Below are positions 5,809-62,689 of a stretch of 64,000 nt of DNA, one piece after another. The position numbers and the translations under genes were made by a program. How positions within the stretch are numbered: the first letter of the stretch is position 1; every line of letters begins with the position of its first letter. The notes beneath the pieces were generated by a model that made no database searches, was not told the origin of the DNA, and saw nothing but the letters and a program-made list of their open reading frames with translations. The DNA lies in NCBI RefSeq assembly GCF_964355755.1, contig NC_092672.1:20644501-20708500 (forward strand), written 5' to 3'. This DNA is from Antedon mediterranea. Lineage: Eukaryota; Echinodermata; Crinoidea; Comatulida; Antedonidae.

Positions 5809-5817
5809 AACAAGTTG
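5809..5817. repeat. 9-bp target-site duplication, left
   Basis: AACAAGTTG lies directly outside the left terminus of the foldback element. The identical 9-mer follows the right terminus at 13318-13326. A 9-bp duplication is the length known for Drosophila FB and Mutator-like elements. Confidence 0.85.
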
Positions 5818-5970
5818 GCTTGTGTCAAGCTAGCCAACAATAAGCCAGCCAACAATAAGCCAGCCCACTTTTATTTTTTCCAGCCAACAATAACTATGAA
5901 ACGCGGTTTGTGCATTCTTTACATTTTCATTGTTACTTATGGCTTTTATGGTATTAGGAATTAAATATTT
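5818..5970 (+). repeat. foldback element, left unique inverted terminus
   Basis: The 153-bp outer domain starts GCTTGTGTCAAGC, a 5-bp-stem hairpin. It carries direct repeats of a 15-mer, AGCCAACAATAAGCC, at 5832 and 5847. A partial copy follows near 5862 and another at 5882. Such outer-domain repeats are candidate transposase-binding sites (inference). Its inverted partner is 13165-13317. Confidence 0.9.
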
Positions 5971-8900
5971 GTGAGAAAAACGGCGGATTGTTCCTGGGAT
6001 TCACTTGGTGGGATTATACTAGGGTACCTCGTTAGTCGTCCAGTATAGGTTAGAGTTGGACCACTGGTCCCGTTTACTCAGCCCTCATCTTTTAAATTTC
6101 AGTATAACTCAATTACGATTGTTAATATATAGTGAAATTTGATATTGTAATTGTGAGAAAACGGCGGATTGTTCCTGGAAGTCACTTGGTGGGATTATAC
6201 TAGGGTACCTCCTTAGTCGCCCAGTATAAGTTAGAGTAGGACCACTGGTCCCGTTTACTCAGCCCTCATCTTTTAAATTTGAATGTAACCCAATTACGAT
6301 TTTAAAAATATAGTTAAATTTGAAATTCTATCTGTGCGAAAACGGCGGATTGTTCCTGGGTATCACTTAGCGGGATTATACTAGGGTACCTCCTTAGTCG
6401 TCCAGTATAAGTTAGAGTGGGACCACTGGTCCCGTTTACTCAGCCCTCATCTTTTAAATCTGAGTGTAACTCAATTACGATTTTTAAAATATAGTTAAAT
6501 TTGAACTTGTATTTGTAAGAAAATGGCGGATTGTTCCTGGGAGTCACTTGGTGGGATTATACTAGGGTACCTCCTTAGTCACCCAGTATAAGTTAGAGTA
6601 GGACCACTGGTCCCGTTTACTCAGCCCTCATTTTTAAAATTTTGAGTGTAACTCATTTACGATTTTTAAAATATAGTGAAATTTGATACTGTATTTGTGA
6701 GAAAACGGCGGATTGTTCATGAGAGTCACTTGGTGGGATTATACTAGGGTACCTCCTTAGTCGTCCAGTATAAGTTAGAGTGCGACAACTGGTCCCGTTT
6801 ACTCAGCCCTCATCTTTTAAATTTTAGTGTAACTAGCTAAATTACGATAACATTTTTAAAATATAGTGAAAATTGATACTGTATTTGTGAGAAAATGGCG
6901 CATTGTTCCTGGGAGTCACTTGGTGGGATTATACTAGGGTACCTCTTTAGTTGTAGAGTATAAGTTAGAGTGGGACCACTGGTCCCGTTTACTCAACCCT
7001 CATCTTTAAAGTTTGAGTGTAACTCATTTACGATTTTTAAAATATAGTGAAATTTGATACTGTATTTGTGAGAAAACGGCGGATTGTTCCTGAGAGTCAC
7101 TTGGTTGGGGATTATACTAGGGTACCCCCTTAGTCGTCCAGTATAAGTTAGAGTGGGACCATTGGTCCCGTTTACTCAGCCCTCATCTTTTAAATTTGAG
7201 TGTAACTCATTTACGATTTGAAAAATATAGTGAAAGTTGATACTGTATTAGTGAGAAAATGGCGGATTGTTCCTGGGAGTCACTTGGTGGGATTATACTA
7301 GGGTACCTCCTTAGTTGTCCAGTTTAAGTTAGAGTGGGACCACTGGTCCCGTTTACTCGGCCCTTATCTTTTAAATTTGAGTGTAACTCAATTACGATAA
7401 AATTTTTAAAATATAGTGAAAATTGATACTGTATTTGTGAGAAAATGGCGGATTGTTCCTGGGAGTCACTTGGTGGTATTATACTAGGGTAGCCCCTTAG
7501 TCGTCCAGTATAAGTTAGAGTGGGACCACTGGTTCCGTTTACTCAGCCCTCATCTTTAAAATTTGAGTGTAACTCATTTACGATTTTTAAAATATACTGA
7601 AATTTGAAACTGTATTTGTGAGAAAACGGCGGATTGTTCCTGAGAGTCACTTGGTGGGATTATACTAGGGTACACCCTAAGTCGTCCAGTATAAGTTAGA
7701 GTGGGACCACTGGTCCCGTTTACTCAGCCCTCATCTTTAAAATTTGAGTGTAACTCATTTACGATTTTTAAAATATAGTGAAATTTGATACTGTATTTGT
7801 GAGCAAACGGCGGATTGTTTCTGAGAGTCACTTGTTGGGATTATACTAGGGAACCTTTTTATTCATCCAGTATAAGATAGAGTCGGACCACTGGTCCCGT
7901 TTACTCAGCCCTCATCTTTAAAATTTGAGTGCAACTCAATTACAATTTTTAAAATATAGTTAAATTTGAAACTATATTTGTGTGAAAATGGCGGATTGTT
8001 CCTGGGAGTAACATGGTGGGATTATACTAGGGTACGTCCTTAGTCGTCCAGTATAAGTTAGAGTGCGACCACTGGTCTCGTTTACTCAGCCCTCATCTTT
8101 TAAATTTGAGTGTAACTCAATTACGATAAAATTTTTAAAATATAGTGAAAATTGATACTGTATTTGTGAGAAACTGGCGGATTGTTCCTGGGAGTTACTT
8201 GGTGGGATTACACTAGGGTACCTCCTTAGTTGTCCAGTATTAGTTAGAGTGGGACCACTGGTCCCGTTTACTCAGCCCTCATCTTTAACGTTTGAGTGTA
8301 ACTCAATTACGATTAATATTTTAAAATATATTGAAATTTGATACTGTATTAGAGAGAAAATGGCGGATTGTTCCTCAGAGTCACTTGGTTGGATTATACT
8401 AGGGTACCTCCTTAGTTGTCCAGTTTAAGTTAGAGTGGGACCACTGGTTCCGTTTACTCAGCCCTCATCTTTTTAATTTGAGTGCAACTCAATTACAATT
8501 TTTAAAATATAGTTAAATTTGAAACTGTATTTGTGAAAAAACGGCGGATTGTTCCTGGGAGTCACATGGTGGGATTATACTAGAGTACGTCCTTAGTCGT
8601 CCAGTATAAGTTAAAGTGCGACCACTGGTCCCGTTTACTCAGCCCTCATCTTTTAAATTTGAGTGTAACTCAATTACGATAAAATTTTTAAAATATAGTG
8701 AAAATTGATACTGTATTTGTGAGAAAATGGCGGATTGTTCCTGGGAGTCACTTGGTGGGATTATACTAGGGTACCTCATTAGTTGTCCAGTATAAGTTAG
8801 AGTGGGACCACTGGTCCCGTTTACTCAGCCCTCATCTTTAACGTTTGAGTGTAACTCAATTACGATTAATATTTTAAAATATAGTGAAATTTAATACTGT

Positions 8901-11356
8901 ATTAGAGAGAAAATGGCGGATTGTTCCTGAGAGTCACTTGGTGGGATTATACTAGGGTGCACCCTAAGTCGTCCAGTATAAGTTAGAGTGGGACCACTTG
9001 TCCCGTTTACTCAGCCCTAATCTTTAAAATTTGAGTGCAACTCAATTACAATTTTTAAAATATAGTTAAATTTGAAACTGTATTTGTGAAAAAACGGCGG
9101 ATTGTTCCTGGGAGTCACATGGTGGGATTATACTAGAGTACGTCCTTAGTCGTCCAGTATAAGTTAAAGTGCGACCACTGGTCCCGTTTACTCAGCCCTC
9201 ATCTTTTAAATTTGAGTGTAACTCAATTACGATAAAATTTTTAAAATATAGTGAAAATTGATACTGTATTTGTGAGAAAATGGCGGATTGTTCCTGGGAG
9301 TCACTTGGTGGGATTATACTAGGGTACCTCATTAGTTGTCCAGTATAAGTTAGAGTGGGACCACTTGTCCCGTTTACTCAGCCCTCATCTTTAAAATTTG
9401 AGTGCAACTCATTTACGATTTTTAAATTATAGTGAAACTTGAAACTGTATTTGTGAGAAAACGGCGGATTGTTCCTGAGAGTCACTTGGTGGGATTATAC
9501 TAGGGTACACCTTAAGTCGTCCAGTATAAGTTAGAGTGGACCACTGGTCCCGTTTACTCAGCCCTAATCTTTAAAATTTGAGTGTAACTCATTTACGATT
9601 TTTAAAATATAGTGAAATTTGATACTGTATTTGTGAGAAAACGGCGGATTGTTCCTGAGAGTCACTTGGTTGGATTATACTAGGGAACCTCTTTAATCAT
9701 CCAGTATAAGTTAGAGTGGGACCACTGGTCCCGTTTACTCAGCCCTCATCTTTAAAATGTGAGTGCAACTCAATTACAATTTTTAAAATATAGTTAAATT
9801 TGAAACTGTATTTGTGTGAAAACGGCGGATTGTTCCTGGGAGTCACATGGTGGGATTATACTAGGGTACGTCCTTAGTCGTCCAGTATAAGTTAGAGTGC
9901 AACCACTGGTCCCGTTTACTCAGCCCTCATCTTTTAAATTTGAGTGTAACTCAATTACGATAAAATTTTTAAAATATAGTGAAAATTGATACTGTATTTG
10001 TGAGAAACTGACGGATTGTTCCTGGGAGTTACTTGGTGGGATTACACTAGGGTACCTCCTTAGTTGTCCAGTATTAGTTAGAGTGGGACCACTGGTCCCG
10101 TTTACTCAGCCCTCATCTTTAACGTTTGAGTGTAACTCAATTACGATTAATATTTTAAAATATATTGAAATTTGATACTGTATTAGTGAGAAAATGGCGG
10201 ATTGTTCCTCGGAGTTACTTGGTGGGATTATACTAGGGTACCTCCTTAGTTGTCCAGTTTAAGTTAGAGTTGGACCACTGGTCCCGTTTACTCAGCCCTC
10301 ATCTTTTAAATTTGAGTGCAACTCAATTACAATTTTTAAAATATAGTTAAATTTGAAACTGTATTTGTGAAAAAACGGCGGATTGTTCCTGGGAGTCACA
10401 TGGAGGGATTATACTAGAGTACGTCCTTAGTCGTCCAGTATAAGTTAAAGTGCGACCACTGGTCCCGTTTACTCAGCCCTCATCTTTTAAATTTGAGTGT
10501 AACTCAATAACGATAAAATTTTTAAAATATAGTGAAAATTGATACTGTATTGGTGAGAAAATGGCGGATTGTTCCTGGGAGTCACTTGGTGGGATTATAC
10601 TAGGGTACCTCCTTAGTTGTCCAGTATAAGTTAGAGTGGGACCACTGGTCCCGTTTACTCAGCCCTCATCTTTAAAATTTGAGTGTAACTCAATTACGAT
10701 TAATATTTTAAAATATAGTGAAATTTGAAACTGTATTTGTGAGAAAATGGCGGATTGTTCCTGGGAATCACTTGGGGGGATTATACTAGGGTACCTCCTT
10801 AGTCGTCCAGTATAAGTTAGAGTGCGACCACTGGTCCCGTTTACTCAGCCCTCATCTTTTAAATTTGAGTGTAACTCATTTACGATTTTTAAAATATAGT
10901 GAAATTTGATACTGTATTTGTGAGAAAACGGCGGATTGTTCCTGAGAGTCACTTGGTGGGATTATACTAGGGTACACCCTAAGTCGTCCAGTATAAGTTA
11001 GAGTGGGACCACTTGTCCCGTTTACTCAGCCCTCATCTTTAAAATTTGAGTGCAAATCAATTACAATTTTTAAAATATAGTTAAATTTGAAACTGTATTT
11101 GTGAGGAAATGGCGGATTGTTCCTGGGAGTCACTTGGTGGAATTATACTAGGGTACTTCCTTAGTTGTCCAGTATAAGTGAGAGTGGGACCACTGGTCCC
11201 GTTTACTCAGCCCTTATCTTTAAAATTTGAGTGTAACTCATTTACGATTTTAAAAATTTAGTGAAATTTGAAACTGTATTTGTGAGAAAACGGCGGATTG
11301 TTCCTGAGAGTCACTTGGTGGGATTATACTAGGGTACACCCTAAGTCGTCCAGTAT
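5971..11356 (+). repeat. foldback element, left tandem array (~30 units)
   Basis: The unit starts GTGAGAAAACGGCGGATTGT and continues through TGGGATTATACTAGGGTACC and the 15-bp palindrome GGGACCACTGGTCCC to CTCAGCCCTCATC and TATAGTGAAATTTGATACTG. Unit starts fall near 5981, 6162, 6343, 6524, 6706, 6896 and so on to 11293. Spacing is 181 bp in one class and about 186-190 bp in another class that has an extra AAAATT or ATTAAT in the AT-rich part. Variant combinations recur in blocks, giving a higher-order pattern. For example, the CATGGTGGG...CTAGAGTACG variant occurs near 8537, 9095 and 10375. Confidence 0.92.
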
Positions 11357-13164
11357 AAATTTCACTATATTTAAAAAATCGTAAATGAGTTACACTCAAA
11401 TTTTAAAGATGAGGGCTAAGTAAACGGGACCAGTGGTCCCACTCTACCTTATACTGAACGACTAACGGTGTACCCTAGTATAATCCCACCAAGTGAATCT
11501 CAGGAACAATCCGCCGTTTTTTCACAAATACAGTTTCAAATTTCACTATATTTTAAAAATAGTAAATGAGTTACACTCAAATTTTAAAGATGAGGGCTGA
11601 GTAAACGGGACCATTGGTCCCACTCTAACTTATACTGGACGACTAAGGGGGTACCCTAGTATATTCCCACCAAGTGACTCCCAGGAACAATCCGCCATTT
11701 TATCACAAATACAGTATCAAATTTCACTATATTTTAAAATATTATTCGTAATTGAGTTACACTCAAATTTTAAAGATAAGGGCTGAGTAAACGGGACCAG
11801 TGGTCCCACTCTAACTTAAACTGGACAACTAAAGAGGTACCCTAGTATAATCCCACCAAGTGAATCCCAGGAACAATCCGCCATTTTCTCACAAATACAG
11901 TATCAAATTTCACTATATTTTAAAAATCGTAAATGAGTTACACTCAAATTTAAAAGATGAGGGCTGAGTAAACGGGACCAGTGGTCCCACTCTAACTTAT
12001 ACTGGACGACTAAGGGGGTACCCTAGTATAATCCCACCAAGTGACTCTCAGGAACAATCCGCCGTTTTCTCACAAATACAGTACAGTATCAAATTTCACT
12101 ATATTTTAAAAATCGTAAATGAGTTACACTCAAATTTTAAAGATGAGAGCTGAGTAAACGGGACCAGTGGTCCCACTCTAACTTATACTGGACAACTAAG
12201 GAGGTACCCTAGTATAATCCCACCAAGTGACTCCCGGGAACAATCCGCCATTTTCTCACAAATACAGTATCAAATTTCACTATATTTTTTAAATCGTAAA
12301 TGAGTTACACTCAAATTTTAAAGATGAGGGCTGAGTAAACGGTACCAGTGGTCCCACTCTAATTTATTCTGGACGACTAAGATGTACCTTAGTATAATCC
12401 CACCAAGTGACTCCCAGGAACAATCCGCCATTTTCTCACAAATACAGTTTCAAATTTAACTATATTTTAAAAATTGTAATTGAGTTACACTCAAATTTTA
12501 AAGATGAGGGTTGAGTAAACGGGACCAGTGGTCCCACTCTAACTTATACAGGATGACTAAAGAGGTACCCTAGTATAATCCCACCAAGTGACTCTCAGGA
12601 ACAATCCGCCGTTTTCTCACAAATACAGTATCAAATTTCACTATATTTTAAAAATCGTAAATGAGTTACACTCAAATTTAAAAGATGAGGGCTGAGTAAA
12701 CGGGACCAGTGGTCGCACTCTAACTTATACTGGACGACTAAGGAGGTACCCTAGTATAATCCCCCCAAGTGATTCCCAGGAACAATCCGCCATTTTCTCA
12801 CAAATACAGTTTCAAATTTAACTATATTTTAAAAATTGTAATTGAGTTACACTCAAATTTAAAAGATGAGGGCTGAGTAAACCGGACCAGTGGTCCCACT
12901 CTTACTTATACTGGACGACTAAGGGGGTACCCTAGTATAATCCCACCAAGTGACTCCCAGGAACAATCCGCCATTTTCTCACAAATACAGTTTCAAATTG
13001 AACTATATTTTAAAAATCGTAATTGAGTTACACTCACATTTTAAAGATGAGTGCTGAGTAAACGTGACCAGTGGTCCCACTCTAACTTATACTGGACGAC
13101 TAAGGAGGCACCCTAGTATAATCCCACCAAGTGAATCCCAGGAACAATCCGCCGTTTTTCTCAC
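11357..13164 (-). repeat. foldback element, right inverted tandem array (~10 units)
   Basis: The same unit appears reverse-complemented, with CAATCCGCC marks near 11508, 11688, 11874, 12054, 12239, 12421, 12602, 12782, 12966 and 13147. At the switch the direct unit breaks after GTCCAGTATAA (about 11357) and the inverted unit begins at once with ATTTCACTATATTT. There is no spacer, so a transcript or single strand would snap back into a near-complete duplex of about 1.9 kb. Confidence 0.92.
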
Positions 13165-13317
13165 AAATATTTAATTCCTAATACCATAAAAGCCATAAGT
13201 AACAATGAAAATGTAAAGAATGCACAAACGGCGTTTCATAGTTATTGTTGGCTGGAAAAAATAAAAGTGGGCTGGCTTATTGTTGGCTGGCTTATTGTTG
13301 GCTAGCTTGACACAAGC
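13165..13317 (-). repeat. foldback element, right unique inverted terminus
   Basis: This is the near-perfect reverse complement of 5818-5970. It ends CTAGCTTGACACAAGC and is followed directly by the 9-bp duplication. Confidence 0.9.
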
Positions 13318-13326
13318 AACAAGTTG
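13318..13326. repeat. 9-bp target-site duplication, right
   Basis: AACAAGTTG is identical to 5809-5817. Confidence 0.85.
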
Positions 13327-19959: not shown

Positions 19960-20205
19960 GTAGTTGTAATCAACTAAATGATAAGAACAAAGCAAACACT
20001 AAGTCACGCTATGTTGTAATTTGTATAGAATCCATTGAATTGCACTGGTTATCACTATATAAATAATGATATAAAAGTGTTTGGTCTTCTGTACAACAAC
20101 CACTTGCATTCAACTTTTGAAAAGGAAACGTTGCATATTTTGGATTTCTTTTATTTTAGCATTACCACTGTAAGTGTATGTAGTACTTGTAGGTCTAAAT
20201 AATGT
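19960..20205. repeat. diverged duplication of 25150-25390
   Basis: Words such as TTTGTAGTTGTAATCAACTA, ATTGAATTGCACTGGTTATC, TTGGTCTTCTGTACAACAA and TTTTAGCATTACC recur in the same order just upstream of ankyrin-gene exon 1 (25160-25360). The alignment continues after the minisatellite: 21325-21430 matches 25440-25560. Confidence 0.7.
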
Positions 20206-21314
20206 TATAACATTATTTGATAGAGAAAGCATTGCTTGAGGAAATTGTTGATAGAAGAGACATTGGATTTTATATTTACCCTATTTCAACATCATGTTAT
20301 AACATTATTTGATAGAGAAAGCATTGCTTGAGGAAATTGTTGATAGAGAAGACATTGGATTTTATATTTACTCTATTTCAACATCATGTTATAACATTAT
20401 TTGATAGAGAAAGCATTGGTTGAGGAAAGTGTTGATAGAGGAGACATTGGATTATATATTTACTCTATTTCAACCTCATGTTATAACATTATTTGATAGA
20501 GAAAGCATTGGTTGAGGAAATTGTTGATAGAAGAGACATTGTATTATATATTTACTCTATTTCAACATCATGTTATAACATTATTTGATAGAGAAAGCAT
20601 TGGTTGAGGAAATTGTTGATAGAAGAGACATTGTATTATATATTTACTCTATTTCAACATCATGTTATAACATTATTTGATAGAGAAAGCATTGGTTGAG
20701 GAAATTGTTGATAGAAGAGATATTGTATTATATATTTACTCTCTTTCAACATCATGTTATAACATTATTTGATAGAGAAAGCATTGGTTGAGGAAATTGT
20801 TGATAGAAGAGACATTGTATTATATATTTACTCTCTTTCAACATCATGTTATAACATTATTTGATAGAGAAAGCATTGGTTGAAGAAATTGTTGATAGAA
20901 GAGACATTGATTATATATTTACTCTCTTTCAACATCATGTTATAACATTATTTGATAGAGAAAGCATTGGTTGAAGAAATTGTTGATAGAAGAGACATTG
21001 TATTATATATTTTACTCTCTTTCAACATCATGTTATAACATTATTTGATAGAGAAAGCATTGGTTGAAGAAATTGTTGATAGAAGAGATATTGTATTATA
21101 TATTTACTCTATTTCAACATCATGTTATAACATTATTTGATAGAGAAAGCATTGGTTGAGGAAATTGTTGATAGAAAAAGAGACATTGTATTATATATTT
21201 ACTCTATTTCAACATCATGTTATAACATTATTTGATAGAGAAAGCATTGGTTGAGGAAATTGTTGATAGAAGAGACATTGTATTATATATTTACTCTATT
21301 TCAACATCATGTTC
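20201..21314. repeat. ~92-bp minisatellite, 12 copies
   Basis: Twelve units of about 92 bp start ATGTTATAACATTATTTGAT, then GAGAAAGCATTGGTTGAGG and TTTACTCTATTTCAACATC. Units 4-12 are nearly identical. A single degenerate unit survives at 25388-25452 in the duplicated segment, so the expansion happened on this copy after the duplication. Confidence 0.92.
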
Positions 21315-25149: not shown

Positions 25150-25560
25150 CTGTACATGAGACAGTATGCGTTTGTAGTTCTAATCAACTATATGATAAAA
25201 CAAGGACAACCTATGGTGTAAATTTTACAGAATATATTGAATTGCCCTGGTTATCAGATAAAAGTGTTGGTCTTTTGTACAACAATTTGCATTCAAGTAT
25301 TAATATAGAAAAAGCATTATATATTTTAGATTTTTTTGCATTTCAGCATTACCTACTTGTAGAGCTAGAATTAATATATTATTAATTGATATAGGAGGCA
25401 TTGGTTGAGGAAAGTGTTGATAGATGAGACATTTATTTACTCAACATCATGTTCAGTACTTTTAGTCCTAGTACTGTATTTATATTGATTATTGTCAAAA
25501 TTAGAGGAAGGGATAGTATATAGGTTGAGTTTAAAGCCACAATCTACAGATGATCCCAAT
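25150..25560. repeat. diverged duplication of 19960-21430
   Basis: This is the partner of 19960-20205 plus 21325-21430. It lacks the minisatellite expansion and keeps one degenerate unit (GGCATTGGTTGAGGAAAGTG). It lies just upstream of the first ankyrin-gene exon. Confidence 0.7.
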
Positions 25561-25697
25561 GATTGCTTCATTCTTTGCCATTGTGATGAGCTGTCAACAT
25601 TAGAGGAAGGGATAGTATTTAGGTTGAGTTTAAAGCCACAATCTGCAGATGATCCTAATGATTGCTTCATTCTTTGCCATTGTGATGAGCTGTCACA
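25501..25697. repeat. 99-bp tandem pair
   Basis: Two units of 99 bp begin TTAGAGGAAGGGATAGTAT at 25501 and 25600, nearly identical through CATTGTGATGAGCTGTCA. The frame LSLKPQSTDDPNDCFILCHC is open in both units and echoes the possible exon at 21375. I do not call it a gene because no splice-compatible borders are clear. Confidence 0.85.
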
Positions 25698-40323: not shown

Positions 40324-40397
<74 letters not shown>

Positions 40398-40409
40398 CGA
40401 GTACGTTTG

Positions 40410-40447
<38 letters not shown>
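40311..40447. repeat. (TA)n tract inside an inverted repeat
   Basis: ACAAACGTACTCACTAAT (40311-40328) and ATTAGCGAGTACGTTTGT (40393-40410) are inverted with one mismatch around about 64 bp of (TA)n. A second (TA)n tract follows to 40447, where a SINE has inserted. The structure should extrude readily as a cruciform and is prone to length change. Confidence 0.85.
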
Positions 40448-40450
<3 letters not shown>

Positions 40451-40790: not shown

Positions 40791-40860
40791 TATATATATA
40801 TTCAGGTTGAAATTTTCAGACCGTTTGGATAGAGTGCTCAATACCAAGGTAGAGCATAAA

Positions 40861-41061
40861 TAAATAAAATAACAGCAGAAAACTTGGTTACTTCATTGTT
40901 TTAATCACTACAAATTTGTTTCGTACGACCAGCATGTAGCTGGCCGCACTCTTCAGGTGAAATATCTGAAGAGTGCGGCCAGCTACATGCTGGTCGTACG
41001 AAACAAATTTGTAGTGATTAAAACAATGAAGTAACCAAGTTTTCTGCTGTTATTTTATTTA
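40861..41061. repeat. perfect palindrome with 96-bp arms, Penelope-like terminus?
   Basis: 40861-40956 and 40966-41061 are exact reverse complements around a 9-base loop (GTGAAATAT). The arm sequence CTGAAGAGTGCGGCCAGC ... GTACGAAAC followed by a T-rich end resembles the CTGAAGA...CGAAAC signature seen at terminal repeats of Penelope-like retroelements, which can carry hammerhead ribozymes. On the left the element continues outward (GAGTGCTCAATACCAAGG), which the right side lacks, so this is a head-to-head junction of one full and one truncated copy (inference). Confidence 0.85.
40966..41013 (+). ncRNA. candidate hammerhead-like core
   Basis: CTGAAGA (40966-40972) fits the hammerhead CUGANGA box. 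It is followed by an 11-bp stem II (GTGCGGCCAGC with GCTGGTCGTAC, two G-U pairs) closed by a TACAT loop, then GAAAC (41000-41004). ACAAATTTGT follows as a minimal stem III and A41013 as the cleavage-site H base. Stem I is weak or absent, so activity is doubtful unless a dimer forms. The left palindrome arm carries the same core on the minus strand. Confidence 0.35.
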
Positions 41062-41267
41062 TATATATATATATATATAATAAAAAAATTCATTATCTAT
41101 ATACCCAATTCGCCAAAAATATTTACCATAGAGGAAGTATTGTTTTGACCATTAATTATTCAATGATAATCTGACGTTAATTATACTTAGCCCCTATGTT
41201 GACAGCCAAAACATTGTTTATTGAACATAGGTCAAACTAATGTCTATATACATCTCATAGACTCTCT

Positions 41268-43726: not shown

Positions 43727-44787
43727 GTAAGTCATCTTCATTATTATTCATTTTCATTTTTAAATATATAACATTTTATTTTTTAATTATAATGGTCTTT
43801 TGGGTAATAATATTTAATGTATAAAACTTCATTGATGCTGAAATTGGCATAATTTGAAGTTATTCAATATATTTTTTTTTTATATTTAGTCATAAAAATT
43901 GCTATGACACTACATTAACATTTTGTCATGTATTTCCATTGAACAATTAAAACAATGAAAATGATAGTGTCAATTTTACTTAACTAAACTACAGCAACAT
44001 GCTATATGCACAATTGCAATATATCATCCTTATTCCAATGTTGATATACAGTAATTTAAACAGTATTATGAACACTACAACTTCACAAAATTTCAATTTT
44101 TCTTTAGATCATTATGATTTTGTATATCTTAAAAGTTCATTTTTTAACAATATTTTTTAATAACTTTTGAAACACTATGATTCTACCTATATATCACATA
44201 GAGGTACAAATGATCAAAGATGCTAGTTGATAGACATATAGACTGTATTCATTTACTTTATAATTATCATCATACTCATTTGCCATACTCTCCTTTATTC
44301 CTTTCAACAACATCACCACCAACTCCAACCACCTACTGGTTTTAGTCACCAAGGATGATGATGCAGAATTTGGTTGAGCGCCAAAGTGATCTTTTATTAC
44401 ACACCCACATTATAGTTTTTTTTTATTAGGTTGTAATTAATGATTTTTTCCATACAATATAAGATACAGATAGTATATCTGCCACTTATCTTTTATCTAT
44501 CTTTATTTATTCTTTCTTTATACTCAGAATAACTTTTTTAAAGTGACACATCTAAAAACAACAATAAAACTGAAATAGTGGTACAAATATAATTTGTTTA
44601 TTTACCGTACCTAGGTTTTAACAAATCACCTTACATAATAATTACAGTATCAAACCACCATTACAATGTCATAAAAAATTTGTAAAAATAAACAAATCAT
44701 CATTAGCATAACTAGGTGCAATATTTTTAGTCTATTGAAAAAAATGTTTCTTTCTTAAACATTTATTTAAATATACATACACGTCAC

Positions 44788-44795
44788 ATAGTAAA
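44788..44795. repeat. 8-bp target-site duplication (3' side of the LINE)
   Basis: ATAGTAAA is repeated at 48132-48139. The uninterrupted paralogous site in copy B (60047-60054) has it once. Confidence 0.8.
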
Positions 44796-47700
44796 AACTG
44801 ATAAACTGATAAAAATACTTTTATTGCAACTTTTGGGTTGAATTATACAAAAATATATACTTATACTTAAATGAAAAAATATATCAAATCCATCAACGAT
44901 ATAAATCAAATAACACAAAAACATCGAACAACAGACAAACTGAAGTCAAGTCAGGGAACGAAGCGACTGTGCAGGGATATATATGTATGCTTACCACTTG
45001 TGAAAGAGACCAAAGTTTACAATAAAATTTTTTGATCGTTCCGTTTTTATTTTTGGAATGCAAAATTCTTTAACTTGTCTTAAATTGTATCTAGATTTGG
45101 GCGCTTTTGGAAGAAGGTGATGTAGTCTATGGGAAGGGTTTTTAAGTTTCTGATAGTAATCCTTGCACAGTCTAGTTCGACGTTCACATAGCACAGGCAC
45201 ATTACATTGAGCCATTGCTTTGTTGTAACTGAGCTCTGGGAACGTGATTCTAAGCGCCCTTCGTTGGATACTTTCCAGTTGGTCAGACTGCAATTTAGTT
45301 AAGCACGTTCCCCAAACGGGGACGGCGTATTCTAGTACAGGTCTGATAACACAACAATAGAAATAGCATAAGGCTTGGGCGTCTAGACCTGACCGGCGCA
45401 ATTGTTTAAGGAAATATAACCGTGAGTTTGATTTAGCTATCAAAGACTCAATATGGGGTTGCCATGATAAATTGTCACATATAATAATTCCAAGGAGCTT
45501 AGTACGGCAAACCTGGTTAACACTACATTTATTAATAATTAGAGGATTAAATATCGACTTGTTTTTCTTACAACTCACAATTAATTCACATGTTTTTTTA
45601 GCATTGAGGGTCATATGGTTAAGCCGAGTCCATGCAAGGGCCGAGTTAGCTATATTTTGCAAGTTACTATTGGACAGTTTAGACACCCTTTCGAATACAG
45701 TAGTATCATCCATAAATTTAACACATGGTTTACCATTTAAAAGGTCATTGATAAAAATAATAAACATAATAGGGCCAATCCACGACCCCTGGGGTATGCC
45801 TCCGTTTGGCGATAGCCATTCAGAAAGACTATCACCAATTTTAACACGTTGTTGTCGGTTATACAGGAAGGCATTAACCCATCGGATCAGGTGACTATCA
45901 ACCCCCAGCGCAATGAGTTTGTTTAAGAGAATTTTGTGGTCGATCAAATCGTAGGCCTTTTTAAAATCCAATAATAAAACTCTAACCTCTTCGCCCGCAT
46001 CAGTGGCAAGGAAACAAACATTAAGGAATTCAATTAAGGCGTCAACCGTAGAAACACCTTTACAACAACCAAATTGGTTTAGGTTAATCTTATCCTTAAC
46101 TTGGTGCCAGATCATTTCGCCCACTAGGCTCTCAATTACCTTTGCCATTATAGGGGTTAAAGCTATTGGGCGGAGATCACTTTCGACCAACTTTGGGGGA
46201 AACACTTTTGGGATTGGGACAATATTGGCTCGTTTCCATTCTTGGGGAACCCATCCGTTTCTAACACTTGAGTTAGCAATAGCACATAAAGGACCACTAA
46301 GAATCTCAGCACCCTCTTTAAACACCCAGGGGGGAAGGTCATCTGGACCAGGGGCTTTATTACATTTAATTTGATGAAGTTTAATCCTGACAGTTTCCAG
46401 CTCTATGATAAGGTGACTAGGGATTTCATCAATATCTAATAGTGGATCTAGGGGAGGGAGGGGGTTAAATTCCGTGGTCAATGAGGCAAAAAATTGATTA
46501 ATTTTATTTGAAAGCAAGGTTTTATTGCCGTTACACAGCAAATTTGACATTCCTACAAGTGCATGATTTTCTTTGCATCCTAGATTGAGAAACCTTTTGG
46601 TGTGTTTCCACCAGGATCGGGAATCCGAATTCAAGAGCTTAGCTACATTGTTTTTGTAAAAAGATTTACGTAGGGATTTTGACATCCGGTTAACTTTGTT
46701 TCTCAGTGAGCGGAACTCAATAAGATTTCCTTCCTTAAAAGCAATTTGACGTTTACGAATAAGATTCTTGTATTTGGAAGTAACCCAGGGTTTATCCATC
46801 ACATACTGTGTTAAGGGAACAAGGGGAAAATGATGGTTATATAAAGATTGTAACTTATCATTCAAAAACTTAAATTGACTATAACAATCATTTAACTTAT
46901 ACATATCATGCCATCTAATACTACAAATGTCCTCAAAAAACAAAAGTTTATTGTTCAGTTTAAACAACCTCTTAAGGCTCTTGTTAGTGTAGTAGTGATC
47001 AAGTTTCACATTTGCGACCGGCTTGCAGATAACTACCCTATGGTCCGAAAGGCCAAGAGGAGGCTCGGTGATAGGGGCCAAATAAAACTCTCCCAATGAC
47101 GTATAAAACAAATCGAGAATCGCTTCCTTTCTTGTGGGTATTTTAACTAGTTGCTTTAGCGGGAACTTTACCAATTTATAGTCCTTCATGCGGTTAAAAT
47201 CACCAGTAATCACGATGCCGGTTTCCGGGTGCTTTGAGCACACATAATCAAGACTGTGAATAATATGGTTGCACATTTCTAAATCATTTGAATTTGGAGG
47301 GTGGTAGATCAATCCTATGGTTATATTCGCGATTTTGCGTGGCAAGCGTTTGGGACGAATGGTTATCCATATACTCTCGAATGCTTCATCCTTAATTTCT
47401 GACCAAACTTTATAAGGAATTGAGTCTTTCACATATACGACTACTCCTCCGCCTCTTCTATCGCCTGGTCTATCTGATCTAATAAGAGAGTAGCCTTCAA
47501 TTTCCACAATCGTATTTAAAATAAATGGTTTGAGGTGAGTTTCCGTAATTGTAATGATGTCGTAGGCAGATTGTTTAACTCTATGGACAAGTTCGTCCAT
47601 TTTGTTTGGTAGCGATAGAGCATTAGTACTAAAAAACGAAGGAAAATTCCACCCAGTATATTGTTGAGCGAGATGAACAAGGTTGTTAGGGTTACATCCA

Positions 47701-48131
47701 CTGGAACCTTTTCCACACTGCCTATGGTTATGTCTTGAGGATATCCTAACTGGTATTACTCTCTGTTTGAATCTACCTCCACGACAACCGCGATGGTGGG
47801 TGGCTAGAATTCCCAGCTCTTTAAGAGAAACGAATACATCCTTGCTTAGTTTAGCGTCGGAATGCTTATAGCCTGCGATACGCTCTCTACTGAAACACAT
47901 TGTTATGCAAATGAGGATCACTGGAATGCTCCGTCAGGACAAGCCTCTCCACCACTGCAACGTTTCCGGCGAATCCGAGATGTTATATGTACCAACAATG
48001 GGCCTAGCTTTAGTACAGTTCCAACTTGACAATTTTAAGACAGCACAAACAAAGTTTCACCAAACAAATCACATCACCACAAACAGACAGTTCAATGCAA
48101 ACAGAATATCCACACCAAACATCAAAATTAT
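44796..48131 (-). mobile_element. CR1-like non-LTR retrotransposon, 3.3 kb
   Basis: The borders are set by comparison with the empty site in copy B and by an 8-bp duplication. The 5' end lies at 48131 with about 210 bp before the open frame. The 3' UTR (44990-44796) ends in a tandem TTTATCAG motif instead of poly(A), as in CR1-clade elements. A complete endonuclease-RT frame fills most of the element. A separate ORF1 is absent, so the copy may be 5'-truncated or from a single-ORF lineage. Confidence 0.9.
44991..47921 (-). CDS. endonuclease-reverse transcriptase of CR1-like LINE
   Basis: The 976-codon uninterrupted frame encodes a retrotransposition enzyme that nicks target DNA and copies the element's RNA at the nick. 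The AP-like endonuclease occupies about residues 108-300: TETH (E127), RRGGGVVVYV (about 155-164), IVITGDFN (GDFN 240-243) and SDH (292-294). A basic linker follows. The reverse transcriptase begins near NKAPGPDDLP (521-530) and has LDFKKAYDLIDH (651-662), GGIPQGS (707-713) and the catalytic FMDD (736-739), a variant of YADD. The thumb and C-terminal region reads RPVLEYAVPVWG. No frameshift or stop is present, so the copy may still be functional or was very recently so. The first ~100 residues are low in similarity to anything I recognise, and the true start could be M108. Confidence 0.92.
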   Translation of the reverse strand: MILICITMCFSRERIAGYKHSDAKLSKDVFVSLKELGILATHHRGCRGGRFKQRVIPVRISSRHNHRQCGKGSSGCNPNNLVHLAQQYTGWNFPSFFSTNALSLPNKMDELVHRVKQSAYDIITITETHLKPFILNTIVEIEGYSLIRSDRPGDRRGGGVVVYVKDSIPYKVWSEIKDEAFESIWITIRPKRLPRKIANITIGLIYHPPNSNDLEMCNHIIHSLDYVCSKHPETGIVITGDFNRMKDYKLVKFPLKQLVKIPTRKEAILDLFYTSLGEFYLAPITEPPLGLSDHRVVICKPVANVKLDHYYTNKSLKRLFKLNNKLLFFEDICSIRWHDMYKLNDCYSQFKFLNDKLQSLYNHHFPLVPLTQYVMDKPWVTSKYKNLIRKRQIAFKEGNLIEFRSLRNKVNRMSKSLRKSFYKNNVAKLLNSDSRSWWKHTKRFLNLGCKENHALVGMSNLLCNGNKTLLSNKINQFFASLTTEFNPLPPLDPLLDIDEIPSHLIIELETVRIKLHQIKCNKAPGPDDLPPWVFKEGAEILSGPLCAIANSSVRNGWVPQEWKRANIVPIPKVFPPKLVESDLRPIALTPIMAKVIESLVGEMIWHQVKDKINLNQFGCCKGVSTVDALIEFLNVCFLATDAGEEVRVLLLDFKKAYDLIDHKILLNKLIALGVDSHLIRWVNAFLYNRQQRVKIGDSLSEWLSPNGGIPQGSWIGPIMFIIFINDLLNGKPCVKFMDDTTVFERVSKLSNSNLQNIANSALAWTRLNHMTLNAKKTCELIVSCKKNKSIFNPLIINKCSVNQVCRTKLLGIIICDNLSWQPHIESLIAKSNSRLYFLKQLRRSGLDAQALCYFYCCVIRPVLEYAVPVWGTCLTKLQSDQLESIQRRALRITFPELSYNKAMAQCNVPVLCERRTRLCKDYYQKLKNPSHRLHHLLPKAPKSRYNLRQVKEFCIPKIKTERSKNFIVNFGLFHKW

Positions 48132-49980
48132 ATAGTAAATTATAGTTAACAAAAAATAGTGACATTGTTTAACACTAAATAACTAAGAAACACAAGAAAC
48201 CTGAACTAGACTTAAATGTTCATACAAACATGTAACAAGTTCAGAGTGTATCCAACATTTAACATTATGAAATATTTTAGACCACTGACAATGATGATCA
48301 CCAGTGCTTTGCAAAGTCTGCAGTTTCTGTAATTATTCATTCATATTTATCTCCATCATCCAACATTATCAAACAAAACTGTTTTGAGGATAAGCATAGC
48401 TATATGTAAGGTTCAACTTTAATAATTTTTAAAAGTTTTACACACAACACAAATAAGTAAAGCTTTCCCCGTTTATTCAAAGTATACATTTAACAATACA
48501 TAATATTTATTTCTACTGATACTGTACAAGCAATGCTAAATACTACTAAAGCTTAATAATAAACTACATTTGGCCTCTTGGGGGCTACCACTCATATGAC
48601 ATCGCTGTATTAAAGGTCCAGTGTGTTGTCACAGGAGCCAGTAAATCAAATGGTTGAGTATATCGGAAGGATGTAAGTGACATCCGTTAGGTAAATTGTG
48701 AAATTTGGGGGCAAAATAATTCCCCAGAATTATACCAGCCAAATGAGCGAATAGCATGAGTAACATATGAGTTAGCGCCTGTGTTGAAGTTAGGTGTTGG
48801 ATGATGCCAGGGGATGGCTGGGTGGGAAGATTGAAAAGTTTGTACAACTATTAAACGGCTAATTTAACAATGAAGTCTGCTATTATGCATCTTAGTAAAC
48901 AACTAAAATACCCATTGGTTGCCAATTAGAAATTAGCCTATCCTACATTTTGTGGCTCCACTATTAGATATACCCGTTGGTATAGATAGAAATACATTGT
49001 CAATTACTGTGGTTGGAACTTTAATTACCTGTAGAAACAATATACCATTCATCCTAACACTTCTGTAACTCTGAAATCTACCCACATTATATACCACATC
49101 CTTAGTTAAAAAGAAAGTACTTGTGCTGTGTATAAACTATAATTTATTACTTTAAATTTCCTTTAACATTTTCTAACATTAATGTTAAAATATTACTTTT
49201 AAAAGAACTTATATAGACAAATTTCAAATTTCAGTACAAGCTATTTAACTATTTAAAAAATAAATATGCCAAGTTATATTTTAATCAATGGATGTAAATG
49301 ACTTTGCATTATATAAATGTATTACAATTGTTTATAAACTCTTCATTTTTGTAGCACAACTAATATTGACCTTGGTTTATCCTTGTTTCAGTTGGATGGT
49401 CCTACCTTTTCAATAGAATTACATTCATTTTCACAGAGTAAATTAAAATTTATCTCCTTTAAAATTAAATTCAATAAACTTTATCCCATAACAATTTTCC
49501 TATGAATAAATAGATGGAATTATTCTTAGTTTATTGATTTGATTCAAACCAATTTCATACACATTTACACATCCAGAAATATTCTGTTCATTTTACTACT
49601 ATTATACAATTCATTTATTAGCTTTGTTATGGGTTTAACAAGCTAAATTCTGTCTGTCATATAATATAATAGTCAAAGGCAAAAAATGTCTTAATAGGCA
49701 AACAATTTCTATTAATCATACATCCTAATAATCTATCCATAATTGTTTCATAATATCACATAATAATTTTGATTTTTATTGCGCTACAGTACAATAAAGT
49801 TCAAATTACACAGTAACATCTCTATTCTTTTGTACATAAATGATAGAGAGGCACTTTAAACAAAAATTGGAAAAATAAACGGTGTTGTAAAGAATATTAT
49901 CAGATGACTATAATATAGATAATATAACGTTACGTTGGTGTTTTTATGGTCAAATTTTTGTTTTATTGTTTATTGTGGCT
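48132..49980. other. copy A, non-coding part
   Basis: This matches 60047-61140 in copy B. A frame at 60530-60781 is broken here by frameshifts, arguing against a gene. No function was recognised. Confidence 0.6.
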
Positions 49981-49984
49981 AGAA

Positions 49985-51760
49985 CTACACTGTTTCCTTC
50001 GCTAGGCTGATCCTAATGCTAATCCTAATGCTCCTAATGTTCACATGATTATCATGGAACGATATGTCCCCCACCTTCAAATGAATAACCTTATTTTTTC
50101 TCATAAAACCAAATAAAGAAAGCACTAGATCAAGCATTTAGTAAAAATTGTATACCTGCATTTTCTTACGCACAACGCCTTTGCACCTACGCTTAGCACC
50201 TTCCAATATCATGTGCAATTACACTTGAGTTATTGTCTTCTTCTTCTAGACTGCAATCATGTTCCCATTTAATACTGAAATATGGAGATTCAATCCTGGA
50301 ATAGCACCAATCACCATCACAACCAAATACAACTTAGCATTTGTTCAACATTATCGACTCCATAACTCAATTAACTATTTAGTAGGTAGCCTAACCAATA
50401 CGGTTCCTGCCACAATCATCCAGTTTATGGGCGCTTGGTCTGTGGCTGTAGCCATTCAGTTTTTCTTAGTCATTTGACTTAACAACATTCCCACTTGGCA
50501 ATTGGCAAGCGTCTATACGCAAACACAACACTGAGCTACTAAACCGAGGAGTTACAAAAATAGATGACTTCATGCTTCCCTGGTCCAACAATTCTTCTGG
50601 ATTTGGAAATCTCATTAGACCGACTATAAATCTGTAAAAACCCCCATCGCTTCCAAACACTATCAGCCAAAAAAACTGGCCACTCCGGAATGACCAAGGT
50701 ACCATGTGCCCTTCATCGCCTTCCTGATGAGACTGATAGGCAGAACACCTTTCCAATCATTGGCGAAAGCATCTACAGCAGAAAGTTTGGACATCAAAAT
50801 TTTGTTTGAGAATTTTCCTATCTTAAAATTAGGGTCATCCGTGAAGCTATCAAAAGTGTGTGGACCCCAAATGGCATCCAAATTATAGAAAAAATCCCAA
50901 TCATAAAAATCTATCTCCCTGCTGAGCAGATCAGCCTCCCAATTGAGCTCTCTATGCACCCATTGGACGTCTCTGAATAAATTGTTTCGCAAAGCTCTAA
51001 AGCCAACTGATTCAAGTCTTTATGCATGCTACCTTTCCTACAAATTGAAACAACACCTCTGTTATCTGTAAATATTTTAATTTTTTTCTCTTTTAAGTTA
51101 GAAGAAAATGCTTGCAATGCCAATAACACACCATTCAGTTCTCTCCACGTACAGCTTCTGACTGACTCATGCTGATTCCAGCCGAGACAAACTGCAAACG
51201 GTCATAGACTTCGCTCCATGCTGATTCCTAGTCATAGTTGAGCACCTTATACGCTCCACAATTCACTCCACTAGCGTCAGTAAATGTAATTGCCTGTGGA
51301 GAATAATCAAAAAAATATTTTTGCTTCCAGAAAAATATCTCCTCAATAACTAGACCCCCACTCGCTGCAGTAATAAAATGCCACAACTTGAGAAAGGGAA
51401 ATTATCTTCCCCACTAGCCTCGCTAAATCTCTGGACCTGTAGTGAGGGAGACCCTGATTGACCTCTAATAAACCCAAACCAGCCATAGCCAGGTTACAAC
51501 CGGACTTAGATCCTACATTGATTTTTTGACGTTTTAACAATGTTAGAGACTTTAGTACATGCGGCATGGGAACCTCTCTTACCAACCATCGTCCAAAAAT
51601 ACTAGGATCCAATACATCACTAATGGGCCAAGAACCTTTGTAAAATCCTTGAATACGATAAATGGTTGAATCAAGACTATTCCACTTATATTTGGGGTAA
51701 AACATTATAGTTTTGTTTAAAATAATTGCAAAACTCTGCAATCCTCCAAAAAACATAGAA
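49985..51760 (-). pseudogene. DIRS-like (tyrosine recombinase) retrotransposon, RNase H to recombinase part
   Basis: Read on the minus strand with frameshifts. 51756-51343 gives the region after the RT palm (SRDLARLVGKIISLS). About 51310-50910 gives the RNase H: FTDASGVNCGAY, then TWRELNGVLLALQAF (partly in a shifted frame), then KIFTDNRGVVSICRKGS. 50992-50663 continues WVHRELNWEADLLSR and WGPHTFDSF, the RNase H-to-recombinase connection of DIRS elements. About 50210-49990 gives the start of the tyrosine recombinase: ILEGAKRRCKGVVRKK, then LVLSLFGFMRKNKVIHLKVG and DISFHDNHVNI. The catalytic H..R..Y end is missing in this copy but partly present in copy B (61400-61650). The copy is dead. Confidence 0.8.
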
Positions 51761-51899
51761 AACCTCTATTTTAACAAACATAAAAGTGATTGAATCAGTA
51801 GTGTACAACTCACTTGGTTTGTCAATTAAAAAAAACCAATTTAAATATATTTTTTGTTTAACTACTTATTTTGCCACAAAGCATCATTGTTTGGTTTTA

Positions 51900-53260
51900 A
51901 AAAATAATTGCTAAACCTTCACTCTCGGATTAGAGGGGGCGTAATTACCAGCCCAAACAATGTTACAGTACTGTATAATTAAAACATTTTATTTTAATTT
52001 CTTTAGAATACTAATAATTATTTAGATATTTTATTTTATAAAAATTGTTGGCGGCCAATAATCCAATTAAAAGACCAAGGAATGATACTTCACTTATTAA
52101 TTTTCCATCAAAAAAAATATAACAATTGTTGTGTGTAAGTCTAATTCAATTTGTTGTAGCCGTATTAATTAATAATTGGTTTGTAGTGAACCATTCACTA
52201 ACTTACTTAACTCTCAATTTAAAAAGTTTAACAAGACATCAATATTGTTATTATAATAAAATAAAGTTGTATCATCTGCAAAAAATAGTAAAATATTACT
52301 ACATAAAAGTTGTCTGGAAGATTTATTATTATTGATTTGAAATAATGATTTCGATCTGTAAGATCTTTTAAACCAATCTAAAAAAATGCCTCGAAATACC
52401 ATAGCAAAACAACTTGGAAATTGAAATATCATGGTTAAATGCTTTTGATAAATCTTAAAAATAAATTGTTTTCAAATGCAGTATTAACAGAATTAGTGAG
52501 TTCAAGAAAAGCATGACAAGTGGTATTGTATGCATACATTTTCAATATTTTGGAAAAATGGGTAAAATTAAGATTGGTATAATGATTAATACTGTATATA
52601 AAGTAGATTCGTTTTTAAATACAGGATTAACTTTTAATATGATTAGGTAATTAACCCATCATGAATGATAAATTAATGCTGTATGTGAGATGGATAATAA
52701 TTAACAGCAACCTGTTTAAGAATCATGCCCTCAACCTTTACTTGAATTCAAATTACTAATTATATTAAGCACTTCTATTTCAGATATAAATGAGGGGCTA
52801 TATCTTTGCCATTTTTAGGAATATAGAATTCCAAGTAGTTTTACAAATTTCTGAAAAATAATCATTACATTCTGGCTAATTATGTTTGTATCATACATAT
52901 TCATCATTCATTTTTTAAACATGAGGTGTATTTTCACTTTCTTTACCAGGATTAATTACAGAATGTATTACTTATTTTTTATGTTAAATTTAATCTGATT
53001 GAATTTATTTTTTTTTTTAATTTGACAGAGTGCAGTAATAATGTTGCTTTACTTTTTATATCTTGAGATATTGGAACATTTATGAATTTGTTAAAGTTTA
53101 TGCTTATGTTTACTAAATTTATTTAGGTTGGGTGGGTAGAGGGATGTCGTCCATAGTTGTTTTAGTGTTTTTTTCTTGAACTGCAAAAAGCTTATAAAAA
53201 AATGTATCAAACATTAGAATTAACTGTACAGTTTGAGAAAGATAAAAGCAAAATGCACCT
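51900..53260 (-). pseudogene. decayed L2/CR1-like LINE, RT domain (copy A)
   Basis: On the minus strand, in shifting frames: FISEIEVLNIISNLNSSKG (about 52790-52730), KVNPVFKNES and ILILPIFPKY (about 52640-52550), an FxDLSKAFNHD core broken by a stop (about 52460-52430), FRGIFLDWFKRSYRS (about 52390-52350) and FADDTTLFYYN (about 52280-52250), the catalytic YADD box. The order is correct for a reverse transcriptase. The same ruin recurs at 62880-64000, so this LINE was already in the segment before it duplicated. Confidence 0.8.
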
Positions 53261-54879: not shown

Positions 54880-55256
54880 TATATATATAGGTAACTTTAT
54901 TTCAAAAATGTAACAAAACCACGCACTGTGGATTTACAAAATCTGATACGTTCTTATATGCATGCATCCTACAACAACAAAAAATATAAAATTATGTAAA
55001 AATAAAGATTCAAAATAACAAAAGCCACTTATCTCTGTTGCTGGCAATCTCACGCAAATTAATTAGGTCGTTTAAATTATTTATCTTAAAATTTCTGATA
55101 AATAAATCATTTCTAAGTGTACTTAACAGATTGGTTTGATGTTTTCCAATTCGCCCTTTTATTGGATTAGAGTGTACTATACCAAAAACCAATGCTGAAA
55201 AAGCAGGAGTATCTTCACTCATTCTAAGTATATGGCCAAGCATAGACCAATCCTTT
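54880..55256 (-). pseudogene. 3' part of an old minus-strand LINE (split by a nested LINE)
   Basis: The minus-strand frame encodes WSMLGHILRMSEDTPAFSAL, GRIGKHQTNLLSTLRNDL and NLREIASNRDKW. This is the conserved C-terminal tail (W..LGHI.RM....GR.G...) of a group of non-LTR retrotransposons. A 3' UTR follows with AATAAA-type signals near 54895 on the minus strand. The upstream part of the same protein is at 58375-59570, on the far side of the inserted plus-strand LINE. Confidence 0.78.
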
Positions 55257-55257
55257 G

Positions 55258-58374: not shown

Positions 58375-59570
58375 ACCTATGTTTATTTACATTCTCAGAT
58401 AAAGGGTTACCAAATATAACTTATTATTGCTAATCTTTTTCGGATATTTCACATCAATTATAGTTCTTAAGTGGGACCTATGACAGGTATCAATTTTTTA
58501 CATAACAACTTTGGGAGCAGACCAGCTATTGCAATTATACAATAAAATAGATACTACTAATACATTATATAACTTGAGTTTCAAATCAGTTGCAATATTT
58601 TTCTTAAGCCACACATTATTAAAGTTGTTAAATGCTACATTTGCTAATATAATTCTATGCTTAATATCTTTAGTAGTATCTAAAAATGAACCTAAGACCC
58701 TATGAGACCTCCATACTTCAGATTTTGGGTCCTTACTATCAATAAACACATGGTTAAACTCAGTCTTGCTTTCATTAATAAATAAATTCCAATCTTTAAA
58801 AACAGCAATTGGCAAGACATTATCAAGTTCGCTCTTGAGTTCAGAAAGAAAGTCAATATCGTCAGCATAGGAGAATTCAAGCGGGAAACATTTAATGTCA
58901 ATTGGTGGATTAGGTCTGAAAGTAGTCATTATAGCTCTTAACTGGTACAAGCTCCAGCAAATGTGATAGTAAAAAAAGTCCTGATAAACAATCGCCTTGA
59001 AACGAACCTATTACAGATTCAAACGAACTGGAAAGTTTACCACCAACTTTTACTTTGTAGTTTGGTATTTGACAACATAAACCTAACTAGGCGTATGTCA
59101 TCGTCAGAACAACCAGCATCGCTTAGTAAACGTAACACAGTACCACGTTTAATAGTATCAAACGCAAGACATGTCTAAACCCATTTTGTAGAATTCGGTT
59201 TTCCAGGTTTTTGCAGGGGTATAATTAAACCTTCAGTTATACTCTGCAGATGTATATTTCTTTCAAAACATTGATTAATGATGCAAGCGTAAAGCACATA
59301 GACATCATCACTCGCATACTTGAACAATTCTGGTGAAATCTTGTCAGATCCACAAGCTTTATTATTTTTTAAAGAGGAAGCAGTATTAGCCACTTCACTG
59401 ACCGTTATTGGGTAGTTTAACTTTCTTGGTGGACCATCAAATGCGTTTATTGGATCAATGCTGACATCAGTTAACTGTTTGCAAAACCAATCTTTCACGA
59501 CTTCTGCTTTCTTTTGATTTGAATAAATTGCACTTCCGTCATACTCATTTGCCATACTCTCCGCCATACT
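58375..59570 (-). pseudogene. 5' part of the old minus-strand LINE: reverse transcriptase
   Basis: On the minus strand: KKAEVVKDWFCKQL (about 59500), then SSLKNNKACGSDKISPELFK (about 59400-59330) and EGLIIPLQKPGKPN (about 59230-59190). After a small deletion and frameshift comes AFDTIKRGTVLRLLSDAG (about 59160-59110), then SFQGDCLSGLFFT (about 59000-58960) and FSYADDIDFLSEL (58870-58830, catalytic YADD). Next are KVWRSHRVLGSFL-like and LLYNCNSWSAPKV (about 58540-58500), then DTCHRSHLRTIIDVKYPKKI (about 58470-58420). The protein resumes beyond the nested element at 55256. The clade is not certain: the QGDCLS and D.CHR.HLR blocks fit RTE/Ingi-type elements better than CR1. Confidence 0.82.
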
Positions 59571-60046
59571 CTCCTTTATTCCTTTCAACAACATCACCAC
59601 CAACTCCAACCACCTCCTGGTTATAGTCACCACCACCAATCCCAAGAATGATGATGCAGAATTTGGTTGAGAGCTAAAGTGATCTTTTAATACACACCAC
59701 AATTATAGTTCTTTGTTATTAGGTTGTAATTATTTTTTCCATATACAATATAAGATACAGATAGTATATCTGCCACATTTATTCTTTATACTCAGGATTA
59801 ACAAACATAAATAAAACTGAAATAGCGGCACAAATATAATTTTGTAAGTTATTTACCGTACCTAGTTTTTAACAAATCACCTTACATAATAATTACAGTA
59901 TCAAACCACCATTACAATGTCATACAAAATGTATAAATAAACAAATCATCATTAGCATAACTAGGTGATGATTGATCCATAGCAATATTTTAGTCTATTT
60001 AAAAAAATGTTTATTTCTTAAAATTTATTTAGATATACATACACAC

Positions 60047-60054
60047 ATAGTAAA
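60047..60054. other. empty (pre-insertion) site for the CR1-like LINE
   Basis: ATAGTAAA occurs once in the continuous context ACACACATAGTAAATTATAG. In copy A the 3.3-kb LINE sits between two copies of the same 8-mer. Confidence 0.85.
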
Positions 60055-61379: not shown

Positions 61380-61660
61380 AACCTTTAAGATGTGGCTTAA
61401 CTTTCATTGGTCATGCTTTATAACAACCTACCTTCAACCCCTGCGTTAGCGGCTGCGGTAACACTAACCCAGCGAATGCTATGCAGTCCAAATAGATACT
61501 CATTGTACCCACATCTTCGTAAAATATCCTTAAACAGCACGGCAGCGTGAATAGGACATCTTTCTAGCATGTGGCTACTAGTTGATTTCACTGACTAAAT
61601 AGTGCTAATGTGGTTCTATGCCTTCTACTCTCTCTATCAGCATGTATAAAGACCCAGGTA
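61380..61660 (-). pseudogene. DIRS-like tyrosine recombinase, C-terminal part (copy B)
   Basis: The minus strand reads DTDTWVFIHADRESRRHRTT (about 61660-61600), then in a neighbouring frame HMLERCPIHAAVLFKDILRR (about 61575-61515) and FGLHSIRWVSVTAAANAGVE (about 61495-61435). H-S-I-R followed by TAAANAGV is the HxxR active-site box of DIRS-type tyrosine recombinases. Copy A lost this part and kept the RNase H and recombinase N-terminal half, so the two copies have decayed in complementary ways. Confidence 0.75.
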
Positions 61661-61664
61661 TCTG

Positions 61665-62560: not shown

Positions 62561-62689
62561 CAATGATTAAATCAAGACTATTCCACTTATATTTGGGGTA
62601 TCACTTGGTTTGTCAATTAAAAAATTTAATATATTTTTGTTAAATACTTAATTTTGTAGTTAAGCATCATTTGTTGGTTTATAATTGCT

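Follow-up and report, generated by a model that had tools for sequence, protein, structure and literature searches.

A satellite-armed, coreless foldback element of Antedon mediterranea, very probably mobile, and a long relative with a coding centre

The window analysed here, a 64,000-nucleotide stretch of DNA from the crinoid Antedon mediterranea (C3:20644501-20708500), contains an element of about 7.5 kb (5809-13326) whose body consists only of two facing rows of a 181-bp unit. This element is very probably a recently active mobile element and one of many copies. By structure it is filed as a foldback, and we judge it likely to be a non-autonomous cut-and-paste DNA transposon for which long copies supply the transposase, its coreless form having arisen by faulty repair. 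The parts of the element, with positions in the window, are as follows.

5809-5817, no strand: left target-site duplication (TSD), 9 bp, AACAAGTTG, by sequence inspection
5818-5970, plus strand: left terminal inverted repeat (TIR), 153 bp, starting GCTTGTGTCAAGC, by alignment of the ends
5966-11358, plus strand: left arm, 29.5 direct copies of the 181-bp unit, by Tandem Repeats Finder
11351-11361, no strand: central junction, about 11 bp fitting the direct and the inverted unit alike, by comparison of the arms
11357-13169, minus strand: right arm, 10.0 inverted copies of the 181-bp unit, by Tandem Repeats Finder
13165-13317, minus strand: right TIR, 153 bp, with 1 mismatch to the left TIR, by alignment of the ends
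13318-13326, no strand: right TSD, 9 bp, AACAAGTTG, by sequence inspection

The sequence-only reading of this DNA had proposed a foldback with 9-bp duplications and 153-bp inverted ends, about 30 direct followed by about 10 inverted copies of a unit of some 181 bp, and neither a loop nor coding sequence. This plan was borne out in each part. The same 9 bp lie on both sides, the two TIRs differ at 1/153 positions, and anchor counts gave 30 plus and 10 minus with the strands not interleaved, the spacings in the left arm being 180-190 bp. The arms abut at the central junction with no unique loop, and the element holds no open reading frame (ORF) of note, the longest overlapping stop-to-stop ORF being 72 aa. 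When the outer 1.96 kb of both arms were aligned, 1849 identities, 105 mismatches and 53 gap positions were obtained (39 of the latter represent the length difference between the two pieces compared), so a duplex of roughly the 1.9 kb proposed earlier is possible. A 15-bp repeat lies inside the left TIR (2.6 copies at 5827-5865 by Tandem Repeats Finder) and inside the right one (13270-13308). The sea urchin TU elements, which have the foldback plan, also carry 15-bp repeats in their ends, a likeness of description. The unit consensus contains the palindrome GGGACCACTGGTCCC, which is conserved no more than the unit overall (two of its positions at 81-82%). Derivation of the units from the TIR was rejected, as local alignment gave a score of 20 for the direct and 14 for the inverted orientation, where shuffled sequences averaged 18 and reached 31, and no TIR-like site within the unit was found by this comparison. 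No additional matches to the terminus or the unit occurred within the 64-kb window at E 1e-3.

The terminus was then searched across the own genome (354 Mb, 18 contigs) and gave at least 40 matches, a lower bound because only 40 of 105 candidates were scored. By position and strand, 17 facing pairs, 7.5-33 kb apart, were recognised among these, and 6 of the 40 scored termini had no scored partner. The window element and ten others (E1-E10) were read end to end and parts of others as well; flanks on both sides were read for 15/17 pairs, the exceptions being C5:1140428 and C4:17145035. All 15 showed an 8-9 bp duplication, perfect in 12 and with 1-2 mismatches in 3. A perfect in-register 9-bp TSD was present in 10/15 (the window element, E2, E4, E6, E7, E9, E10, the 33-kb copy, C11 and C1:2165586), the TSDs of E3 and E5 were perfect at 8 bp, and those of E1 and C4:3743353 matched at 8/9 and that of E8 at 7/9 bp. 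In the control, with flanks swapped between elements, 0/210 combinations were perfect at 5-11 bp and 1 at 4 bp. The proposal that this is a mobile foldback is supported by termini that are multi-copy, face one another and are flanked by duplications, and by a relative that has these ends and holds coding sequence. A local satellite array with an inversion, or an assembly artefact, that never moved would suit a body made of tandem repeats, and inverted repeats can be expected to be difficult for assembly. However, 17 facing pairs lie at separate loci, the 8-9 bp duplications are exact in 12/15 pairs, and the arm lengths differ around several distinct centres. We rejected this explanation, to which we allow almost no probability, on the multi-copy ends with their TSDs.

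In each of the 11 fully read elements a TIR is followed by a direct array, an inverted array and the second TIR, with no core, so the loop-free centre that had been singled out in the window element is general among them. The 30:10 asymmetry of the arms, thought distinctive at the same time, is no family trait. Plus:minus anchor counts were 30:10, 17:23, 25:31, 35:16, 36:22, 28:32, 36:23, 36:38, 45:36, 37:36 (one match, located inside an insertion, dropped) and 59:23, with 10-59 units per arm and element lengths of 7.5-15.3 kb; arm lengths across the family are 1.8 to 10.8 kb. The left and right TIRs of one element differ at 0-3/153 bases, plus 2 gap positions in E10, and on this likeness the family is taken as young. 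As judged from its sequences, then, it is a young multi-copy family with near-identical 153-bp ends, 8-9 bp TSDs and arms of 181-bp satellite. In the left arm of E9 we observed an insertion of about 1.4 kb (CAGGGGTCCCAA...TTGGGACCTCTG) with GGTTTAC on either side, which by eye looks hAT-like. Three of the six unpaired ends were array throughout the 1.5 kb available, C9:22916734 had about 70 units, interrupted over about 0.8 kb, and then other sequence, and C5:15757205 and C8:2838729 were short remnants.

Unit order and central junctions served as markers of descent. We excised 651 units from the elements, which differ from one another by 9% on average, and anchor spacings were mostly 180-190 bp (extremes 166 and 193) in a pattern specific to each arm. 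E4 (C4) and E6 (C7) have an identical order of 35 left and 21 right units at 99.9%, with different TSDs, and hence an 11-kb coreless foldback is present whole at two sites; E4 is the shorter by 177 bp, a difference located at the centre, which we read as the E6 centre with a deletion. Between the window element and E2, one arm agrees in its 26 outermost units (97-100%) and the other in its 6 outermost (98-100%), beyond which the two diverge; one arm shows 98.25% identity over 5543 bp. For E7 and E10 the outer units of both sides and the centre are common and the arm interiors differ, and the same holds for E5 and E8, with one side less clear. Arm length appears in these comparisons as a character that varies among close relatives, with the outermost units and, in some, the centre retained.

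Junctions of the 11 elements were compared by eye and by unit phase. One junction is common to E6, E7, E9 and E10 (in E10 from the other strand) and includes a 17-bp filler that is a piece of inverted unit. A junction this odd in four elements argues that coreless forms multiply as such, their arm lengths drifting later. A second junction is common to E5 and E8 in opposite orientations, and the window element, E1, E2 and E3 each have a junction of their own. The centre, as the compared sequences suggest, can mark descent while the arms gain and lose units. Overlaps and fillers at junctions are a mark of microhomology or template switching, as in gap repair of DNA transposons. We suggest that coreless forms had more than one origin, in incomplete repair of a break within a long copy, which would join a unit to an inverted unit at short common words, once with templated filler, and delete the coding centre. 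As any unit can pair with any inverted unit, loss of the core would be easy and the junction different each time.

A family coreless from the start, whose arms lengthened until they joined through gene conversion from one arm to the other, would also account for 11/11 coreless elements, and Galileo offers a parallel with its two-TIR copies and the copying of a TIR region to the other side (PMC3573991). Against it, the nearest relative of the 651 units, with ties entered in each class, lay in another element for 566 (400 exclusively), in the same arm for 231 and in the opposite arm for only 20 (22/595 units without E4). As the pool of units in other elements is larger, this count is no strict test and only shows that opposite arms are not kept alike. 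The existence of a 33.2-kb copy with a centre is also against a coreless start, which we regard as quite improbable.

This copy, a pair with family ends and the perfect TSD ATGTGCGAG, lies at C3:8279859-8313032. Eight 200-bp samples were taken from it, of which the outer four were array (two per side; direct on the left, inverted on the right) and the inner four were not; 2 kb near the middle were not array either. The plus arm was seen to 8286.7 kb and the minus arm from 8306.0 kb, which bounds the centre to at most 8286.7-8306.0 kb. In the 5.0 kb of centre read, in seven stretches, no 13-base words of the unit consensus occurred. A coding core in other long pairs was rejected at the points seen, with array in 5/5 samples of C1:2165586, 3/3 of C4:3743353, 3/3 of C11:35179, and in the left 8.5 kb and 1/1 sample of C5:1140428, the stretches between samples being unread.

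Within C3:8303000-8305200 a frame is open for at least 570 aa from the first base of the stretch. Pfam matched 503 aa of it (L078:2-1513) to UCH (7e-20) and to Peptidase_C48, the Ulp1 family (2.4e-19), a predicted fusion of ubiquitin and SUMO protease domains in one frame of the 33.2-kb copy. The His, Asp and Cys of SENP1, which we take to be its catalytic triad, are present in the alignment of the Ulp1 part, and on inspection by eye the UCH part seems to retain intact Cys and His boxes. Four matches were found in a protein search with this ORF. The first is an uncharacterised protein of Strongylocentrotus purpuratus (44% identity, 82% coverage) from a cluster of 14 member sequences on 1 listed contig, which is no demonstration of copy number; the second is an Anneissia japonica protein of the same layout (50% identity, 56% coverage); the third has no name (33%, 54%) and the fourth is a weak fungal match. 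Another frame, seen open at 8290 kb, was dropped, having no Pfam match and being closed by a stop upstream, and four ORFs of one stretch of the centre gave Pfam matches below the curated cut-offs only.

The sequence-only reading had proposed a search for an autonomous relative with the same ends and a transposase. A long copy that shares the ends and holds coding sequence exists, and we regard it as the best candidate parent; no transposase was found in it, with 5.0 kb of its centre read and PF10551 as the one transposase model applied. Several further observations weigh, like this one, against the preferred explanation. The MULE model PF10551 matches 36 places in the genome and none inside the 17 paired elements (an exon-by-exon search with one model), and a single gene-bearing copy is known. 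The outer 1.6 kb of its arms are at best 94.4% (left) and 96.0% (right) like the other ends compared, and therefore the 33.2-kb copy is a relative and not a demonstrated direct parent. The sequence gives no support for a transposase binding to the units, because the similarity of unit and TIR does not exceed that of shuffles.

In a further explanation, a transposon located at another place in the genome moves the coreless foldbacks, and the 33.2-kb copy is a foldback with captured host genes, a Pack-element and no parent. It draws on the unseen transposase and on the fly element FB4, which is described as non-autonomous, with an unknown transposase and a captured gene (PMC8277862). Against it, weakly, the closest proteins to the fusion are the uncharacterised S. 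purpuratus protein and the Anneissia one of the same layout, and no ordinary conserved host gene; also weakly, a paper about the Ginger group of DNA transposons takes up Ulp1 (PMC2836005). We consider this explanation rather unlikely. Under the preferred reading, a transposase provided in trans, most likely by long copies of the kind seen on C3 (33.2 kb), would act on the ends and move the element, and the UCH and Ulp1 protein, if it functions as its domains suggest, may free host silencing factors, or the transposase itself, of ubiquitin or SUMO. A bolder extension, which we think doubtful, would make the 33-kb copy the autonomous head of a giant satellite-armed lineage of echinoderm-like animals, with its own ubiquitin/SUMO double protease against SUMO-dependent silencing of the arms and with coreless foldbacks seeding satellite DNA.

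Long inverted repeats with internal tandem repeats (11/11), TSDs and multiple genomic copies are the traits of the foldback class, and all are present. Satellite-armed foldbacks are already known in Tetris and Rehavkus-1_TC, and the present family is a new, large variant. Tetris of Drosophila virilis has TIRs with a unique outer domain and tandem repeats of about 220 bp, 8-9 bp TSDs in three complete copies and repeats in arrays of up to 66 copies, and no coding copy of it was found (PMC4079207). It is like our family in the unique outer end, the long tandem unit in the arms and the 8-9 bp TSDs, but its TIRs are at most 1.7 kb with an inner domain and a middle part, whereas here arms of 10-59 units abut and a long coding copy exists; the likeness is one of description. 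Rehavkus-1_TC of Tribolium, a 9.5-kb DNA transposon, has a 164-bp satellite in its inverted termini, although its arrays are mostly of five and eight units (PMC10218199), and satellite repeats in inverted termini are found here as well. The Rehavkus TSD is 9 bp, and MULEs have TSDs of 8-11 bp and long TIRs (PMC6446971). Here 10/15 TSDs are perfect at 9 bp, 3/15 match at 7-8 of 9 and 2/15 are perfect at 8 bp, and the TIRs are long; TSDs and satellite ends together point to Rehavkus/MULE as a candidate superfamily. Rehavkus is marked by a DDE transposase with a PHD finger. KDZ (Kyakuja-Dileera-Zisupton), which has a transposase of its own (PF18758), was also considered.

Galileo, of the P superfamily, is similar in its very long repetitive TIRs, its two-TIR copies and a unit number that varies independently per TIR, but its TSDs are 7 bp and its TIRs at most about 1.3 kb (PMC3573991), whereas most TSDs here are 9 bp and the arms measure 1.8 to 10.8 kb. 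None of our 15 pairs was perfect at 7 bp, against 10/15 at 9 bp and 2/15 at 8 bp. P elements have an 8-bp TSD. FB4 of Drosophila resembles the family in its foldback plan, 9-10 bp TSDs and non-autonomy, but its TIRs are about 0.7 kb (PMC8277862). The available parts of a giant-transposon review (PMC6431247) and an arthropod MULE survey (PMC13359780) held nothing that settles the case. Searches of open-access literature listings brought up no foldback that combines tens of long units per arm with a UCH/Ulp1 relative, which proves little.

Several other features were seen in the window. Long ORFs at 44991-47933 (minus) and 55246-57994 (plus) look by eye like non-LTR endonuclease and reverse transcriptase, and several blocks of 44271-53231 recur in 59553-64000 at 77-82% identity, as would two old copies of one repeat. 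Twelve copies of a 92-bp tandem unit (97% matches) occupy 20202-21313, with parts recurring at 25170-25563 (68-88% identity). A 211-bp self-inverted stretch (96%) at 40856-41066 is perhaps a small inverted-repeat element, and an (AT)n run lies nearby at 40327-40449.

In the published descriptions consulted, Tetris and FB4 lack a known coding parent. The present genome, assembled to chromosome scale, contains a young set in which bar-coded coreless copies occur together with a long coding copy with the same ends. This set allows tests of how foldbacks originate, how satellite arrays are carried and lengthened within transposons and which agent mobilises them, and the predicted UCH and Ulp1 fusion offers a concrete candidate means of escaping SUMO-linked silencing that an enzyme assay could address.

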